64,000 nucleotides of DNA. Source: an uncultured bacterium. Its GTDB lineage: Bacteria > Bacillota > Clostridia > Oscillospirales > Oscillospiraceae. Positions 54,731 through 60,726 of this stretch are shown here, one piece after another. Both the position numbers and the translations under genes were made by a program. Location of the stretch: contig CANRXB010000011.1 in assembly GCA_947643715.1 (NCBI GenBank), positions 1-64,000 on the forward strand, in the 5' to 3' direction. Position 1 is the first letter of the stretch. Every line of letters starts with the position of its first letter. The notes under the pieces are model-generated. The model searched no databases, was not told the DNA's origin, and was given only the letters and a program-made list of their open reading frames with translations.

Positions 54731-57553
54731 TTACTGCAGGAGCTGCAGCACGCCCTGGGGCACCTGATTGGCCTGGGCCAGCATGGCCTGGGCGGACTGG
54801 ATCAGGATGTTGTTCTTGGTGTAGGCCATCATCTCGGCGGCCACGTCGGTGTCGCGGATGGTGGACTCGGCGTCCTGGATGTTCTCCGTCATGACGCTCA
54901 GGTTGTTGATGGTGTGGTCCAGACGGTTCTGGGTCGCGCCCAGGGTGCCGCGCACGTCGGACACGTAGTTGATCGCGGACTTGATCTTGTCGATGGCCGC
55001 GGCGGCGTCCTCCTGGTTGTCGATGCGGATGTCGCCGATGCCCATGTCCGCGGTGTGCATGTTGTAGATGGACACGGTCATCTTGTTGAAGTCCTCGGCG
55101 GTATCGCCGATCTGGAGGGTCAGGCCGCTGGTGCCGCCGTCGAACTTGACGGTGGGCGTGACGATCTTGTTGGTCTCACCGTCCACCAGGCCGCGCACGG
55201 TGACCTTGCCGTTCTCATCCACGGTGACGCTGGCATCGTTCTGGCCGTTGGCCAGCTTGGCCAGGGCGCTGCCCAGGCTGGAGGCGGTTTCCTTGGAGAA
55301 GTCTGCCACTTCGATGGTCAGGTTGGCCTTGTCGGTGGCCTTGCCGCCCTTGTCGATGAACTCATAGGTCTGACCGTTGATGGTGACGGTGGAGCCAGCC
55401 TGCATCTTCTTGGGATCCAGGGTGAACTCGATCTGGGTGGTCTTGTCGCCGCTGGCGGAGGCGCTGACGGCCTGGGCAGTGGAGCCCACCTTCTTGGTGG
55501 CCACGGTGACCTTGCCGTTGGAGGCGGTGATCTTATAATCGGTGTCGCCCAGATCGCCCTTGATGGCGTTGGCCAGGGCCTTGGCAGCGGAGGAGAGGTC
55601 GCTGATGTCGTCCACCACCACAGCCTTGTTCTGGCCGTTGGACACGTCGGAGGCGCTCTTGACCAGCTCGTACTTCTGGCCGTTCACTTCCACGACCGCG
55701 CCGTAGGACACACCTTCGCTCAGGGTGATGGTGGAGTCGGCGGAGGTCTTTTGATCGCCGTTCTTCAGCGAGGAAGAGATGGCCGCAGCGTCGCCGTTGG
55801 TCAGGGTCAGGCCGGTGATCTGGCTGGCCATGGTGCCCTTGGCGTTGCTCACGAACTTCTCGCCACCGGCGGTGGCGTCGATCTTGATCTCCGCGTTGTC
55901 GCCGAAGATGTCGGAGCCCTTGGCCGGTTTGACCTCGTTGCCGTCCTTGTCTTTCAGGGCCACAGAGAAGCTGTCGCTCTCCAGCAGGGCCTTCAGGTTG
56001 TTGATCGTCTCGTTGTAGGTCTTGCCCACCTGGAAGTCCTTGCCCGCCTCCACGTCGAACTTGAAGGTGCGGCCGTCGGTCAGCTTGCCCTCGATGGTCA
56101 GCTTGTCGCCGTTGGAGAGGTTAGGCGAACCACCAGTATCCAGATTCAACGTGTACTCCTGCGCCTTGGCAGCGGTGCCGGAAGCTGTGCCAGCGGCAGC
56201 GGCAGCAGATTTCGTAGCTCCATCGGGCTTGGTGTTGGTGATCTTGATCTCCGCAGCAGTGGCAGTGGCGGAGATATCCACAAGGCCGCTCTTCTGAGTC
56301 AATTGCAGACCATAGGCGGTGGTGGCGGTCGGAAGGCCCGCGGCTGTGAACAGATCGCTGAACTTGATTTTGCTCTCGTCGATGAAGGTGCTGTCATCAT
56401 CGGTGAAGACCGCTTTGTCACTGTTCAGGAACTTGATCAGCTCGTTACCCGTAGCCTTGTTCGTGTCTTTGATGTCAAAATCGACGCCAGCCACAGCAGT
56501 GAGTGTCGCTGTGGTATTGCCGATCTTGACATCGAAAGTGATACGGTCACCGGCACTGATGTTGATACCGCCGCCAGCGCCGTCCTCGAACATCTTGTCG
56601 AATTTTGCGACGCCAGCGGTAGAGTCTGCGGCGGCGGTCGTCGTATTGTCGAAATCACTGGTCGCCTTGGAATCGGCGATCACGGCATTGGTCACGGTGC
56701 TGGTGATAGGCTCAGTGTCGCTGTTGGCGGCGGTCTTGTTGCCCTCGATCTTACTGGTCAGGACGACGGAGCTGCCGTCGGTGGTGATATCGAAGTGCTT
56801 AGAGACGTCAGCATTCGCCTTCAACGCCTTCATGATATTGGTGGCCTGCTCCTCCAGCGTGGTGCCATGCGCGATGACCCCGGCTGTCTTGCCAGGAGTG
56901 ACAGTGCCCGCGCTGTCAGCATAAGTCAGCACCAAGTTGCCGCCGAGGTCCGCAGCAGCCTGCCCGCCGAAGGTGAGCGTCAAAGTGTCGCCGTCGCTGA
57001 GGGCGCTATCCAGATTGATGGTGTACACGCCGTTGGAGCCGCCGCCGTTGGTGCCCTGCACCACTTCCACGCCCTTGGCCATGTCGATCTGGCTGACGTC
57101 GATGCCGGTGGCGGTGATGTCAGCGCCGGACAGGGAGCCGTCGAACAGCTTGATGCCGTTGAAGTTGGCGCTGTCGGCGATGCGGTTGATCTCGGTGCGC
57201 AGCTGGTCCATCTCCTTCTGGAGCTGGAAACGGTCGGTGTCGTTGTCATAGGTGCCGTTGGCGGACTGCGTGGCCAGCTCCACCATGCGGTTGAGCATGT
57301 CGTGGACCTCGGTCAGAGCGCCCTCGGCGGTCTGCACCAGGGAGATGCCGTCCTTGGCGTTCTTCTGGGCGGTCTCCAAGCCGGTGATCTGGGCGCGCAT
57401 CTTCTCGGAGATGGCCAGACCAGCGGCGTCGTCGCCCGCGCGGTTGATGCGGTAGCCGGAGGAGAGCTTCTCCAGGTTCTTCTTCATCGCAGCCACGTTG
57501 TTGGTGTAGTTGCGGTAGGCGTTCATCGCCATAATATTGTGTTGGATCCTCAT
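54731..57553 (-). CDS. very large flagellin
   Basis: 940 residues from ATG 57553 (MRIQHNIMAMNAYR) behind GGAAGGAG. The conserved N-terminal D0/D1 part (1-140: NLEKLSSGYRINRAGDDAAG, SLVQTAEGALTEVHDMLNRM) and the C-terminal part (about 850-940: NYVSDVRGTLGATQNRLDHT, TKNNILIQSAQAMLAQANQV, ending PQGVLQLLQ) are intact. Between them is about 700 residues of variable, Ala/Thr/Asp-rich beta-repeat domains exposed on the filament. Typical flagellins have 270-500 residues. No HExxH protease motif is seen. It is preceded by its own sigma-28-like promoter and by csrA and a TnpB-like repressor candidate. Confidence 0.96.
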   Translation of the reverse strand: MRIQHNIMAMNAYRNYTNNVAAMKKNLEKLSSGYRINRAGDDAAGLAISEKMRAQITGLETAQKNAKDGISLVQTAEGALTEVHDMLNRMVELATQSANGTYDNDTDRFQLQKEMDQLRTEINRIADSANFNGIKLFDGSLSGADITATGIDVSQIDMAKGVEVVQGTNGGGSNGVYTINLDSALSDGDTLTLTFGGQAAADLGGNLVLTYADSAGTVTPGKTAGVIAHGTTLEEQATNIMKALKANADVSKHFDITTDGSSVVLTSKIEGNKTAANSDTEPITSTVTNAVIADSKATSDFDNTTTAAADSTAGVAKFDKMFEDGAGGGINISAGDRITFDVKIGNTTATLTAVAGVDFDIKDTNKATGNELIKFLNSDKAVFTDDDSTFIDESKIKFSDLFTAAGLPTATTAYGLQLTQKSGLVDISATATAAEIKITNTKPDGATKSAAAAAGTASGTAAKAQEYTLNLDTGGSPNLSNGDKLTIEGKLTDGRTFKFDVEAGKDFQVGKTYNETINNLKALLESDSFSVALKDKDGNEVKPAKGSDIFGDNAEIKIDATAGGEKFVSNAKGTMASQITGLTLTNGDAAAISSSLKNGDQKTSADSTITLSEGVSYGAVVEVNGQKYELVKSASDVSNGQNKAVVVDDISDLSSAAKALANAIKGDLGDTDYKITASNGKVTVATKKVGSTAQAVSASASGDKTTQIEFTLDPKKMQAGSTVTINGQTYEFIDKGGKATDKANLTIEVADFSKETASSLGSALAKLANGQNDASVTVDENGKVTVRGLVDGETNKIVTPTVKFDGGTSGLTLQIGDTAEDFNKMTVSIYNMHTADMGIGDIRIDNQEDAAAAIDKIKSAINYVSDVRGTLGATQNRLDHTINNLSVMTENIQDAESTIRDTDVAAEMMAYTKNNILIQSAQAMLAQANQVPQGVLQLLQ

Positions 57554-57557
57554 TTTA

Positions 57558-57575
57558 TTGACTCCTTCCAATCAA
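57558..57575 (-). promoter_or_regulatory. hairpin with GGA loop over the flagellin ribosome site
   Basis: In the mRNA, TTGAT and GTCAA pair (four Watson-Crick pairs and one wobble) around the 8-nt loop TGGAAGGA, which contains the Shine-Dalgarno and two GGA motifs. It is the shape preferred by CsrA, whose gene is directly upstream. Confidence 0.6.
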
Positions 57576-57639
57576 ATGAATTTTTTTGAGAGGTCTCGGT
57601 GCGCCGGCGCGTCCATGCCCCGGCAAGATGCGGTGCGCC

Positions 57640-57665
57640 GTATCGTCCCTGCTCCGTGGCCTTTG
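57640..57665 (-). promoter_or_regulatory. sigma-28 (SigD)-like flagellin promoter
   Basis: On the minus strand: CAAA (57662-57665), 14-bp spacer, GACGATAC (57640-57647), compared with the consensus TAAA-N15-GCCGATAA. It sits between csrA and flagellin and gives a leader of about 80 nt. Confidence 0.5.
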
Positions 57666-57689
57666 GTGCGGGGACCGTCCAGCGCGGGA

Positions 57690-58106
57690 CTATATTCCAG
57701 CCGGTCGCGACCCGGATGAAATCGCTCTGTTGGTCAGCTCGTCCTCCCATGTGGTCGGGACGATCTGATCGATCTGGGCGCGGAGCAGCTCCGCTTCCGC
57801 CGCCGTCCCGTTCTCCTCCAATCGATCGGCGAGCTTCTCCAGGGCGCGGATCGCCCGCTCCCGCTCGTCGTTCCAGAGGAAGGCGGCTGTCGGTCTGTAT
57901 CGGTATTTTTTTCGGGGCGGCAGGGCCGAGAGGCAGGCGGGCCGTTGTCTGCCCTGGCGCTCCAGCACCTCGCCCCGGACGATGGGGACCTCCCGGGGCG
58001 CATGGATGGTCAGGTGGGCGCGTTCACCGCTGAGCTGGTCGAACAGGACCACGGTGTCGCTGCCCACGGTGAAATACTCACCGCGTTTCATGGTGATACA
58101 AAGCAT
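57690..58106 (-). CDS. csrA: CsrA-like translational regulator with C-terminal extension
   Basis: 138 residues from ATG 58106 behind GAGGAGG. Residues 1-50 align with CsrA: MLCITMKRGEYFTVGSD, then THL-like strands and IHAPREVPIVRGEVLER with the conserved R44. The R6 of E. coli CsrA is Met here. Residues 55-138 are an added basic linker (LPPRKKYRYRPTAAFLW) and a long helix (RERAIRALEKLADRLEENG), roughly doubling the usual size (60-75 residues). CsrA in Gram-positives represses flagellin translation and is held by FliW; no fliW is in the window. Gene order csrA-flagellin is conserved in Firmicutes. Confidence 0.85.
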   Translation of the reverse strand: MLCITMKRGEYFTVGSDTVVLFDQLSGERAHLTIHAPREVPIVRGEVLERQGRQRPACLSALPPRKKYRYRPTAAFLWNDERERAIRALEKLADRLEENGTAAEAELLRAQIDQIVPTTWEDELTNRAISSGSRPAGI

Positions 58107-58508
58107 GATGTCCTCCTCGATCTGCGCTCCCCCGCCCGGGGGCCGCTTTCCATAGTCATGATGTTTTGGACGCCCGCCGTCCTGTCCCCGCGCGGGGGCC
58201 CGGCAGGCTTCCACCGCGATCCCCGCAGGGAGGGCGGTGTCTCGTTTCCCACTTTCCGGCCTGGAGCGCGCTGAACGAAGCGCCGTGGCGGGGACCGCGC
58301 GCGGTCCGCCGCGCATCTCCCCACACGGCCCATAGCGCTGGGCTCGCGGAGGATCCCGGCGCTTTGCTCAACGCCTCCAGCCGGGACATGGGCATCCACC
58401 GGCGTCCCGGCCGGCACATCGGAGCGAGGTCCGCTTCGTTCCCTTGCTCCTCCTTTCCGACCGCGATCCCGTTCGCCGGGCTCACGGTCGGGGCGGCCTG
58501 CGGCCGCT
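58107..58508 (-). ncRNA. candidate guide RNA region of the TnpB-like gene
   Basis: 402 bp without a gene between the TnpB-like stop and csrA. Read on the minus strand it holds strong stems: GCGGCC/GGCCGC just after the stop, CCGACCG/CGGTCGG with an inner CCCG/CGGG, and GCCGGGAC/GTCCCGGC near 58382-58413. A second frame continues the typical TnpB tail (ERVKRPQAAPTVSPANGIAV, GKEEQGNEADLA), so the DNA was once tnpB 3' end. In TnpB and TldR systems the guide RNA overlaps and follows this end. The guide itself is not identified. Confidence 0.4.
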
Positions 58509-59693
58509 TCACGCGCTCTCGCGCGATCCTTGACTGCTGAGGTATCGGTCCAATCCCTGGGCCTTGATGTTTTTTGCGGCGTTGATCTCCCTGTCGTGCA
58601 CCGCGCCGCATCTGGGGCAGGTCCAGGTCCTGGCCCTGGGCGCGGCCGCGTCCCGGACCAGGCCGCAGACGGAGCAGGTGCGGGTGGTGGGCCAATAGCG
58701 GTCCACCACGAGGAAGGGCTTGCCCTGCCGTTCCAGCTTGTAGCGCAGGCACTCCCGGAACATCCCGTACCCGGAATCCAGGACGTTGCCCCATCTCAGC
58801 TCTCTGGACATCTCGGACAGGGCGTCGGCCCGCACACACACGGCGTCCCAAGCGTTGGCTATCCGCCGGGACGTCTTGTGGATGAAGTCGCGCCGCTGGT
58901 TGGCGATGTGCTCGTGGAGCCGGCGGTATCTCTGCACCGCCTCCTGATGGTTCCTGGAGCCGGGCTGCATCCGGTCGAGCCGCCGCTGTATCCCGGCCAG
59001 CTTCTCCTGGGAGCGTTCGAGCCAGTGGGGCGGGTCCGCCATAGCCCCGTCGTCGGCCACATAGAAGTGGGCCATGGAATACTTCAGCCCCACGGTGGTC
59101 TCCGGCGTCGGGACCACGGGCTGGGGCGGCCTCACCCGTTGCTCGTACAAGATATAGCAGTGATAGCTGCCGGAACGGGTCTTTTCCACCGTGATCCGTT
59201 TCAGCTTCCAACCGCTCCTGGGGCGGCGGGAGAACCTCGCCTTGACGAGCCCGGCCTTGGTCATGCGGATCGCGTCCCTGGTGATGTAGATGGTGGGACC
59301 CGATCTGAACACGCGGTTGCAGGCGGTGAAGGAATCCCTGTCGGTCTTTTTCCTCTTGAACCTGGGATAGCCGAAGCATCCCGGGTCCTTGAAAAACACC
59401 CGGAACGCCTGGGCCAGCCGGTTGTGCTCCTGGATGAGCGCCTGATCGTCCACGTCCTTCAGGAACGGCGCCTCCTTCTTGTATTTGGCGGGGGTGGGGA
59501 TGAAGTGGGCGTCGGTCTCGATATAGAACCTCTGTTGGTCGGCCAGCATCCGGTTCCAGATGTAGCGGCAGCAGCCGAAGGTGTTCTCGAACAGCTCGGC
59601 CTGGGCTTGGGTGGGATAGAGCCTGACCTTGATGGTGTCGTATCGGACGATCCGCCCGTCATCGGGGCTGTGTGCTTTTCGTATCCCCGGCAT
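58509..59693 (-). CDS. nuclease-dead TnpB homologue (TldR-like RNA-guided repressor candidate)
   Basis: 394 residues from ATG 59693. The layout is that of an IS200/IS605-type TnpB: N-terminal YDTIKVRLYPTQAQAELFEN, the REC/WED part, RuvC-like domain and an intact zinc ribbon (C340, C343, C359, C362). The active site is lost: RuvC-I reads TTVGLKYSMAHFYVADDG where the family has GLDYS, so D204 is Lys; RuvC-II reads VCVRADALSEMS instead of VCIEDL, so E288 is Arg; RuvC-III reads HDREINAAKNI instead of HDRDINAA, so D369 is Glu. No transposase is adjacent. Nuclease-dead TnpBs (TldR) are known RNA-guided repressors, some tied to flagellin genes. The location beside csrA and flagellin makes that role likely here. 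Confidence 0.85.
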   Translation of the reverse strand: MPGIRKAHSPDDGRIVRYDTIKVRLYPTQAQAELFENTFGCCRYIWNRMLADQQRFYIETDAHFIPTPAKYKKEAPFLKDVDDQALIQEHNRLAQAFRVFFKDPGCFGYPRFKRKKTDRDSFTACNRVFRSGPTIYITRDAIRMTKAGLVKARFSRRPRSGWKLKRITVEKTRSGSYHCYILYEQRVRPPQPVVPTPETTVGLKYSMAHFYVADDGAMADPPHWLERSQEKLAGIQRRLDRMQPGSRNHQEAVQRYRRLHEHIANQRRDFIHKTSRRIANAWDAVCVRADALSEMSRELRWGNVLDSGYGMFRECLRYKLERQGKPFLVVDRYWPTTRTCSVCGLVRDAAAPRARTWTCPRCGAVHDREINAAKNIKAQGLDRYLSSQGSRESA

Positions 59694-59771
59694 CGGGACC
59701 CGGCCTCCTTCCCTCGACCATGCCCGTCCGCTGCACCGGACGGGCTGCGGTCGAAATACGCTGTCGGATCC

Positions 59772-59797
59772 GTTACAAAATGTATGAAACTTGTAAC
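59772..59797. repeat. 26-bp dyad site A, candidate serine-invertase site
   Basis: Half-sites GTTACAAAATGT and (reverse) GTTACAAGTTTC around a central AT. The 12+2+12 layout equals that of hix/gix sites. It shares GTTACA....GT at the outer and inner positions with site B. Confidence 0.6.
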
Positions 59798-59851
59798 AAC
59801 AGGTCGAAGTTTGAAAAAAATGAGATCTGCTCTTATTTCTTTGCCGGGGCT

Positions 59852-59862
59852 GCCGATATAAT
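59852..59862 (+). promoter_or_regulatory. promoter-like sequence inside the candidate invertible segment
   Basis: GCCGATAT (59852-59859) is a perfect sigma-28 -10 element and overlaps a TATAAT (59857-59862). A -35 match is weak for both sigma factors. It points rightward, away from the TnpB-like gene; inversion between sites A and B would point it at that gene. Confidence 0.4.
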
Positions 59863-59886
59863 GATTGAAAACGTTGAGCTGTCCCT

Positions 59887-59912
59887 GTTACAGGTCGTAT
59901 ACTTCCTGTAAC
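59887..59912. repeat. 26-bp dyad site B, candidate serine-invertase site
   Basis: Half-sites GTTACAGGTCGT and (reverse) GTTACAGGAAGT around a central AT. The dyad extends outward by CCT/AGG. Centre-to-centre distance to site A is 115 bp. Confidence 0.6.
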
Positions 59913-60043
59913 AGGAAACCCGCCGCTCCAGTGGTGAAAATCCACGCTTTCCAGAGATCCAAGGGACATTTTCACCATGATCGTTCCGGCCACGGACCTG
60001 CCCCGCCGGGAAGGGCCATGCTGCGGCGCGTCTATGTAAAGAA

Positions 60044-60087
60044 AAAGCGCCCGTTTCCCTCGGTCCATAGAGGGAAACGGGCGCTTT
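60044..60087. terminator. strong bidirectional terminator
   Basis: AAAGCGCCCGTTTCCCT with its exact complement around a 10-nt loop, 34 bp beyond the recombinase stop; T and A runs on both sides. Confidence 0.85.
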
Positions 60088-60120
60088 CTTCAAACTGCGG
60101 CCGGTATCCTTGCTGCGTTC

Positions 60121-60726
60121 TCATGTGATGGCGCGGGGCTCCTTCGCCCTGCGCAGGAAGGTCTGATAGGAGATCCCCAGTTCCTTTGCCGCGTCCCTGG
60201 AGGAGACGGCCCCCTCCCGCCACAGCGCGGCCATGTCCTCGAAGCCGTCCGGCAGCTCCATGCGTTTGGGCCCGAAGCGCACGCCCCGCACCTTGGCGGC
60301 GGCGATGCCCTCCGCCTGACGCCGGCGGATGTTCTCGCGCTCGGTCTGCGCCACATAGCTGAGGATCTGGAGCACGATGTCCGCGATCAACGTCCCAGTG
60401 AGGTCCCGCCCCTGCCGGGTATCCAGCAGCGGCATGTCCAACACCACGATGGCTGCCTTTCGCTTTTTCGTGATGAACTCCCACTGCTCCAGGATCTCCG
60501 CGTAATCCCGCCCCAGGCGGTCGATGCTCTTGAGCACCAGCACGTCCTCCGGCCGCAGCCCCCTCACGAGCTGCTGGTATCCGGGGCGGTTGAAGTCCTT
60601 CCCGGACAGCTTCTCTATCATGATGTTCCTCTCTTCCACGCCGAACTCCTGCATGGCGGCGACCTGCCGGGCCTCGTTTTGATCGTGGGTGGACACCCGC
60701 ACATATCCGTAAGTCGTTCCTGTCAT
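60121..60726 (-). CDS. serine recombinase, Hin/Gin/resolvase family
   Basis: 201 residues. The catalytic Ser is S12 in YGYVRVSTHDQNEARQ. Further motifs are EKLSGKDFNRPGYQQLV, LKSIDRLGRDYAEIL and the long E-helix DIVLQILSYVAQTERENIRR. A C-terminal helix-turn-helix (AVSSRDAAKELGISYQTFLR) binds the half-sites. The size and layout fit DNA invertases and resolvases, not the large serine integrases or IS607 TnpA. It is encoded next to two dyad sites and the flagellin regulatory genes, so phase variation is a reasonable hypothesis. The ribosome site is GAAGGGGG. Confidence 0.92.
   Translation of the reverse strand: MTGTTYGYVRVSTHDQNEARQVAAMQEFGVEERNIMIEKLSGKDFNRPGYQQLVRGLRPEDVLVLKSIDRLGRDYAEILEQWEFITKKRKAAIVVLDMPLLDTRQGRDLTGTLIADIVLQILSYVAQTERENIRRRQAEGIAAAKVRGVRFGPKRMELPDGFEDMAALWREGAVSSRDAAKELGISYQTFLRRAKEPRAIT

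Follow-up and report, generated by a model that had tools for sequence, protein, structure and literature searches.

A csrA-associated TldR cassette in an uncultured Oscillospiraceae bacterium, with a predicted guide RNA that resembles the start of alternative flagellin genes

Flagellar phase variation by Hin and FljBA in Salmonella combines an invertible promoter with a repressor of the rival flagellin, and this repressor, FljA, is not RNA-guided. RNA-guided repression is the property of TldR proteins, which are nuclease-dead homologues of TnpB. The prophage TldR-FliC system of Enterobacter (FR-phi) is linked to its own flagellin gene and represses a rival flagellin by targeting the host fliC promoter. 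The parts of the paper by Walker et al. (Nat Microbiol 2026, PMC13418256) drawn on here describe csrA-associated TldRs in Oscillibacter, whose guides lead into the open reading frames (ORFs) of alternative flagellins. RNA immunoprecipitation sequencing (RIP-seq) and chromatin immunoprecipitation sequencing (ChIP-seq) of these TldRs in E. coli showed binding of guide RNA and of DNA. The same parts report CsrA binding at a flagellin 5' untranslated region, a guide RNA cut by RNase III, four cross-targeting loci in one Oscillibacter, and, in Flavonifractor plautii, inversions of roughly 120 bp next to hin. The Enterobacter protein is described there as having a 6-nucleotide (nt) seed, as working with guides of 6 nt and as tolerating natural mismatches. 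In the collection of papers searched, we found no further one on the link between TldR, csrA and flagellin. Here we describe a related locus from an uncultured bacterium of the Oscillospiraceae, in a window of 64,000 nt (positions 1 to 64,000 of contig CANRXB010000011.1, assembly GCA_947643715.1). We consider it probable that this chromosomal, csrA-associated TldR cassette helps to select which flagellin is made.

A lost nuclease site, a set cassette order, a covarying scaffold, a match between guide and flagellin, and a putative inverton are all seen in the sequence. The order of features along the minus strand of the window is a hin-like recombinase gene, a 115-bp putative inverton, tldR, the guide RNA, csrA and a flagellin gene (Table 1). 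The csrA start lies 403 nt and the flagellin start about 0.94 kb past tldR, both within 3 kb. These features are shared with the csrA-associated TldRs as described in the parts of PMC13418256 used here: a RuvC-dead TnpB, csrA and flagellin adjoining, hin upstream, a guide into a flagellin ORF, and an inverton of roughly 120 bp. Like TldR-FliC, the cassette adjoins its own flagellin gene and would repress a rival by RNA guidance. The Enterobacter system, however, resides in prophages and targets a promoter, whereas the guide predicted here matches codons 6 to 10 of the flagellin ORF and csrA is linked to it. An invertible promoter and a repressor of the rival flagellin are also the elements of the Hin and FljBA switch, with the difference that TldR is RNA-guided. 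With ISDra2 and other IS200/IS605 TnpBs, the protein shares the fold family, the zinc ribbon and a guide RNA downstream of its gene. ISDra2 TnpB is an active nuclease in a transposon; here the catalytic triad is lost and no transposase adjoins. An earlier reading of the window from its sequence only had proposed a Clostridia TldR that silences flagellin genes together with CsrA and possibly phase variation. The loss of the triad, the link to csrA and flagellin, the guide match and the inverton all agree with this proposal; the kind of system is not new, having been published in May 2026. What our sequence analysis adds is the location of the guide, the comparison of seeds, a putative synonymous-codon rule and the candidate inverton.

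The TldR scored above the Pfam cut-offs for OrfB_IS605, Cas12f1-like_TNB and HTH_OrfB_IS605 and above that of NCBIfam guided_TnpB, and no other PF01385 match occurs in the 2.63-Mb draft assembly of the window genome. Residues K204, R288 and E369 align opposite the D, E and D of the ISDra2-type TnpB chains 8bf8 and 8h1j (which we take to be D191, E278 and D361), so that the substitution of all three RuvC positions, claimed by the sequence-only reading, was borne out. The intact RuvC D-E-D of an active IS200/IS605 TnpB is therefore absent from the window protein. Among 48 rows of the clade, the RuvC-I residue is K in 43, N in four and Q in one, and never Asp. The RuvC-II residue is R in 47 (the interrupted L051 among them is not reliably aligned) and Q in one, and never Glu. 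At RuvC-III we found E in 43, G in two, D in one (L041), A in one and a gap in one (L051). An acidic active site, which would have spoken against a dead nuclease, is thus not seen at the first two sites; the third is Glu here and acidic in most members. Metal-dependent cutting by a RuvC domain with Lys and Arg at two sites is not expected despite an acidic Glu at the third. The zinc ribbon is intact, as had been claimed, with C340, C343, C359 and C362 invariant among 29 aligned members. The D, E and D are retained in L068, a more distant relative within the genus (37% identical). The absence of a transposase at the cassette also held: the sole Y1 transposase match of the genome, on another contig (G000:C40:19923-20180), carries three in-frame stops.

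Relatives were taken from one scan of an 84,980-species collection, which gave 50 loci, one of them (L055) a distant TnpB. Matches were present in 15 of 42 genomes of the genus; in two of the 15, G027 and G030, the sole matches were at 35-37% identity. The relatives have open frames at 66-79% identity and a constant gene order in many species. A csrA gene lies downstream of tldR in 42/48 loci and a flagellin gene in 46/48, a count that omits the interrupted L051 and includes the partial gene L049; these numbers confirm a conserved neighborhood and exclude its absence, the finding that would have counted against the proposal. The two loci without flagellin (L036, L047) both reach contig ends. 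In L038, L041, L044, L050 and L076, tldR is followed by flagellin with no csrA match between them. In L053 tldR is split between two frames, and in L051 an interruption of a few kilobases divides the gene; the L051 copy adjoins flagellin. L010 and L051 are loci of Oscillibacter sp. 1-3 and fall inside the clade (L010 by the tree); the published members' own accessions lie outside our alignment.

Comparison of relatives revealed, 3' of tldR, the sequence GTGGGAAACGAGA, followed by a stem with covariation, a GCC/GGC stem-loop and, after these, a stretch of 15 nt. This places a guide-like RNA within 58110-58560, the region where the sequence-only reading expected one. The scaffold alignment comprised 38 of 45 placed loci, seven with inserts or other layouts being excluded. 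Over three helices, 95.7% of 494 cells pair, a value reached by none of 500 shuffles, and pairing fell to 39-53% when the partners were slid by 1-3 columns. Nearly all of the covariation is within one six-pair helix. The same stems are predicted for the window scaffold, including an enlarged stem-loop (compare the RNase III-cut dual guide RNA), and its overall fold is no better than that of shuffles (z -1.04). At 58149-58173, the CGUC of the relatives' scaffold can pair with the GACG of the guide, which leaves the seed looped; in the window, base 12 is T and the outer pair is lost. Long ungapped matches of the guide region to flagellin loci of its own genome were chance-like only and were set aside, and the guide emerged from the comparison of relatives.

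In the sense of the coding strand, these 15 nt are similar to flagellin codons 6-10 (Asn-Ile-Met-Ala-Met), so that the guide can pair with flagellin DNA and not with the mRNA. The guide pattern was found in 46/49 loci. The misses were L036, at a contig end, and L047 and L050, which branch beside the outgroup and whose guides are, by eye, similar to this flagellin start but with the register shifted. There is almost no variation at bases 13-15, which equal the flagellin Met codon. Base 10 is A in 43/46 guides and G in all 46 of the flagellins encoded beside them (own flagellins).

The window genome has three other Flagellin_N matches, on contigs 9, 66 and 1. The guide has no mismatch in the 6-nt seed and 2/15 overall to the contig 66 flagellin, one seed mismatch and 3/15 overall to that of contig 9, and two seed mismatches, both synonymous, and 4/15 overall to the own flagellin. 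The guide-site pattern searched for was not found in the contig 1 match. By sequence, the guide appears to be aimed at an alternative flagellin ORF, most likely that on contig 66. The own and other flagellins have the 5' flank CARCAY in common. The own flagellin also contains, at 55037, a 13-nt match, which was dropped as a target, as other matches of equal length arise by chance. A site with one mismatch on contig 3 lies, by eye, in the region of a potassium-uptake-type gene.

We then compared own and other flagellins in the 46 loci with both a guide and an own flagellin. Another flagellin start was present in the genomes of 38, and eight loci were dropped. The search pattern detects only flagellins with a conserved start, the assemblies are drafts, and shared ancestry was left in the statistics. 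The best other flagellin surpasses the own in its fit to the 15-nt guide in 35/38 loci, with one tie (L007) and two worse (L010, L076); with one locus per genome it is better in 29/31, with one tie. The own flagellin is strictly the worst fit in 26/38, against at most 14.7 expected were it a random pick. The seed is fully matched in 4/38 own and in 35/67 other flagellins (pairs that are not independent), and the seed is mismatched at one or more positions in 42/46 own flagellins. When guides were shuffled among loci, the fit to the best other flagellin became worse, with p values of 0.017 (9 nt), 0.0004 (12 nt) and 0.0002 (15 nt; one of 5000 as good). For avoidance of the own flagellin, p was 0.011 at 6 nt, 0.19 at 9 nt and 0.08 at 12 and 15 nt. 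Bases 7 and 12 of the guide track the other flagellin of the genome in L043, L030, L040 and L013, and in L043 and L031, which belong to different clades of the tree, base 7 is T in the guide and likewise in an other flagellin.

The window seed is AACATC, against AATATT or AACATT in most relatives. In the window genome the guide and the contig 66 flagellin read AACATC and the own AATATT; in the sister locus L006 (support 0.92) the guide reads AACATT, the own AATATA and the other AATATT. From these states we infer that the codons changed jointly in guide, target and own gene. Flagellins homologous to the contig 66 gene, with the homology including the 5' flank, are present in 11 retrieved loci of the genus, seven with AATATT and four with AACATT.

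Several observations weigh against selective targeting of other flagellins. With the 6-nt seed, the best other flagellin is better in 30 of the 38 loci, with six ties and two opposite, a weaker result than with 15 nt, and shuffled guides come close to the real ones over 6 nt in their fit to the best other flagellin (p 0.25, or 0.08 when each genome contributes one locus). Because the best other flagellin is picked as the minimum over one to five genes, the comparison is biased in its favor; the comparison statistics also ignore the relatedness of the loci. The own seed is a full match in 4/46 loci (L039, L040, L043, L076), and the guides of L010 and L076 match the own gene better than any other. 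Base 10 is mismatched in 46/46 own flagellins and in most targets. A genome-wide search at up to two mismatches gave nine guide sites, one of them the guide itself, and the reversed control gave six; taken out of its flagellin context, the match therefore lacks significance. The codon swap in the window is weakened because only seven of the 11 contig 66-like flagellins have AATATT. CsrA-type hairpins, considered as a second self-sparing signal, were rejected; they precede 16/46 own and 12/27 other flagellins and do not discriminate.

The alternative with the most weight, which we regard as possible though doubtful, is that only the first 6-9 nt are guide. Bases 9-12 (GACG) would then pair with the terminal CGUC of the scaffold and enclose the seed in a loop of 11 nt; the A at base 10 would have a structural role, and the longer likeness would be partly fortuitous. 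The consensus fold does pair CGUC with GACG (94.1% of cells standard), the A at base 10 persists although all own flagellins have G, and short guides suffice in the Enterobacter system. However, changes on both sides occur in only one of the four pairs of this helix, and neither the tracking of the other flagellin by bases 7 and 12 nor the near-constant Met codon at bases 13-15 would be expected from it. The own flagellins with a fully matched seed would also suit a TldR that represses its own flagellin as well, the cassette being an autoregulated rheostat and not a selector, and a transposon-adjacent motif (TAM) in the shared CARCAY flank would not discriminate between the genes. The seed mismatches in the great majority of own flagellins and the better fit of the others make this unlikely.

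Two further explanations have very little in their favor. The resemblance to the start of the flagellin coding region could suggest an ordinary antisense RNA on flagellin mRNA, but the guide-like RNA and the mRNA are of one sense and cannot pair there, and the relatives' TldRs bind DNA in the parts of PMC13418256 considered; we think this highly improbable. Membership of the TnpB family with loss of the nuclease triad would equally fit a decaying transposon remnant without function. Frames kept open at the observed divergence, a constant gene order in many species, the invariant zinc ribbon and the conserved scaffold and guide leave that explanation scarcely credible.

A putative inverton adjoins the recombinase gene in the window, in agreement with the earlier suggestion of possible phase variation. 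The recombinase passes the Pfam Resolvase cut-off and no NCBIfam cut-off, so that its label as invertase-like depends on this domain and on the adjoining putative inverton. Paired 26-bp near-palindromes upstream of tldR could be scored in 42/48 loci (three were too short and three had no candidates). The pairs exceeded the 99th percentile of shuffles in 38/42, and five of these 38 are odd in spacing or content (L010, L020, L037, L043, L062). A stricter screen kept 33/48 loci, with a spacing of 113-136 bp. A promoter-like element, screened with three mismatches allowed and assigned by what we take to be the FliA/SigD consensus, points away from tldR in 21 of these, toward it in nine, and is undecided in three. 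L035 and L036, on one contig, have opposite orientations of the element. In the window, the inverton is apparently in the OFF state because the promoter-like element faces away from tldR. The two recombination-like sites are alike within a locus, and the half-sites are strongly different between loci (L006, L007, L025, L038 and others), as if recombinase-specific.

Table 1. Coordinates of the cassette features in the window
Feature	Positions	Strand	Basis
hin-like serine recombinase gene	60121..60726	-	Pfam Resolvase E 1.2e-29; homologue upstream in most relatives' loci
Recombination-site-like 26-bp near-palindrome, outer	59887..59912	.	10/12 dyad positions complementary; pair score > 99th percentile of all-locus shuffles
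FliA/SigD -10-like element GCCGATAT within putative inverton	59852..59859	+	points away from tldR; weak -35
Recombination-site-like 26-bp near-palindrome, inner	59772..59797	.	8/12 dyad positions; 19/26 identical to outer; 115 bp apart
tldR, nuclease-dead TnpB homologue, 394 aa	58509..59693	-	Pfam, NCBIfam, alignments
Guide RNA scaffold, conserved 3' part, starts GTGGGAAACGAGA, two stem-loops	58166..58252	-	comparison with relatives
Predicted guide stretch AACATCATGACTATG, first 15 nt	58151..58165	-	comparison with relatives
csrA-like gene, 138 aa, long C-terminal extension	57690..58106	-	Pfam CsrA E 9.8e-11; below NCBIfam cut-offs
Own-flagellin site matching guide, AATATTATGGCGATG, 4 mismatches, 2 in seed	57524..57538	-	guide comparison
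Cassette flagellin gene, 940 aa from ATG at 57553	54731..57553	-	Flagellin_N + Flagellin_C

All ORF coordinates of the sequence-only reading were reproduced. The csrA-like gene is above the Pfam cut-off and well below both NCBIfam CsrA cut-offs. Its protein has a C-terminal extension of about 80 aa, which tblastn finds at lower identity in many relatives. The ORFs flanking the cassette resemble, by eye, acetate kinase and glutamate dehydrogenase. In L078 (own contig 9, 5770-9910) there is a second csrA-flagellin cassette without tldR, adjoined by a hin-like gene on the opposite strand, with a further csrA-like and a resolvase-like match alongside.

The selection of flagellin by the cassette could proceed as follows. 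The hin-like recombinase would flip a FliA-type promoter segment upstream of tldR, and the ON orientation would allow transcription of tldR, the guide RNA, csrA and the cassette flagellin. The TldR-guide complex may then bind the first codons of another flagellin gene, most likely that of contig 66, where it would pair with the template strand and block transcription; CsrA would repress translation of the competing flagellin mRNA. The own flagellin would be spared by synonymous differences at the third base of codon 6 and of codon 7, both inside the 6-nt seed. Repression, self-sparing and switching in this species are what we infer from the locus. We regard as evenly balanced the more specific proposal of a synonymous-codon identity code, in which the seed includes the third base of each of these two codons, the cassette flagellins differ there synonymously, others are silenced and the own is spared, and guide and target co-evolve, the code appearing to be swapped here. 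Such seeming self-sparing by synonymous seed bases comes from our comparison; the word "synonymous" does not occur in the main text of PMC13418256.

It now becomes possible to test how a guide directed at the best-conserved part of flagellin leaves its own operon untouched. If the proposed code is true, codon use at one site would be a regulatory signal under selection, and guides and flagellin starts read from genomes would predict mutually exclusive flagellins in gut commensals.

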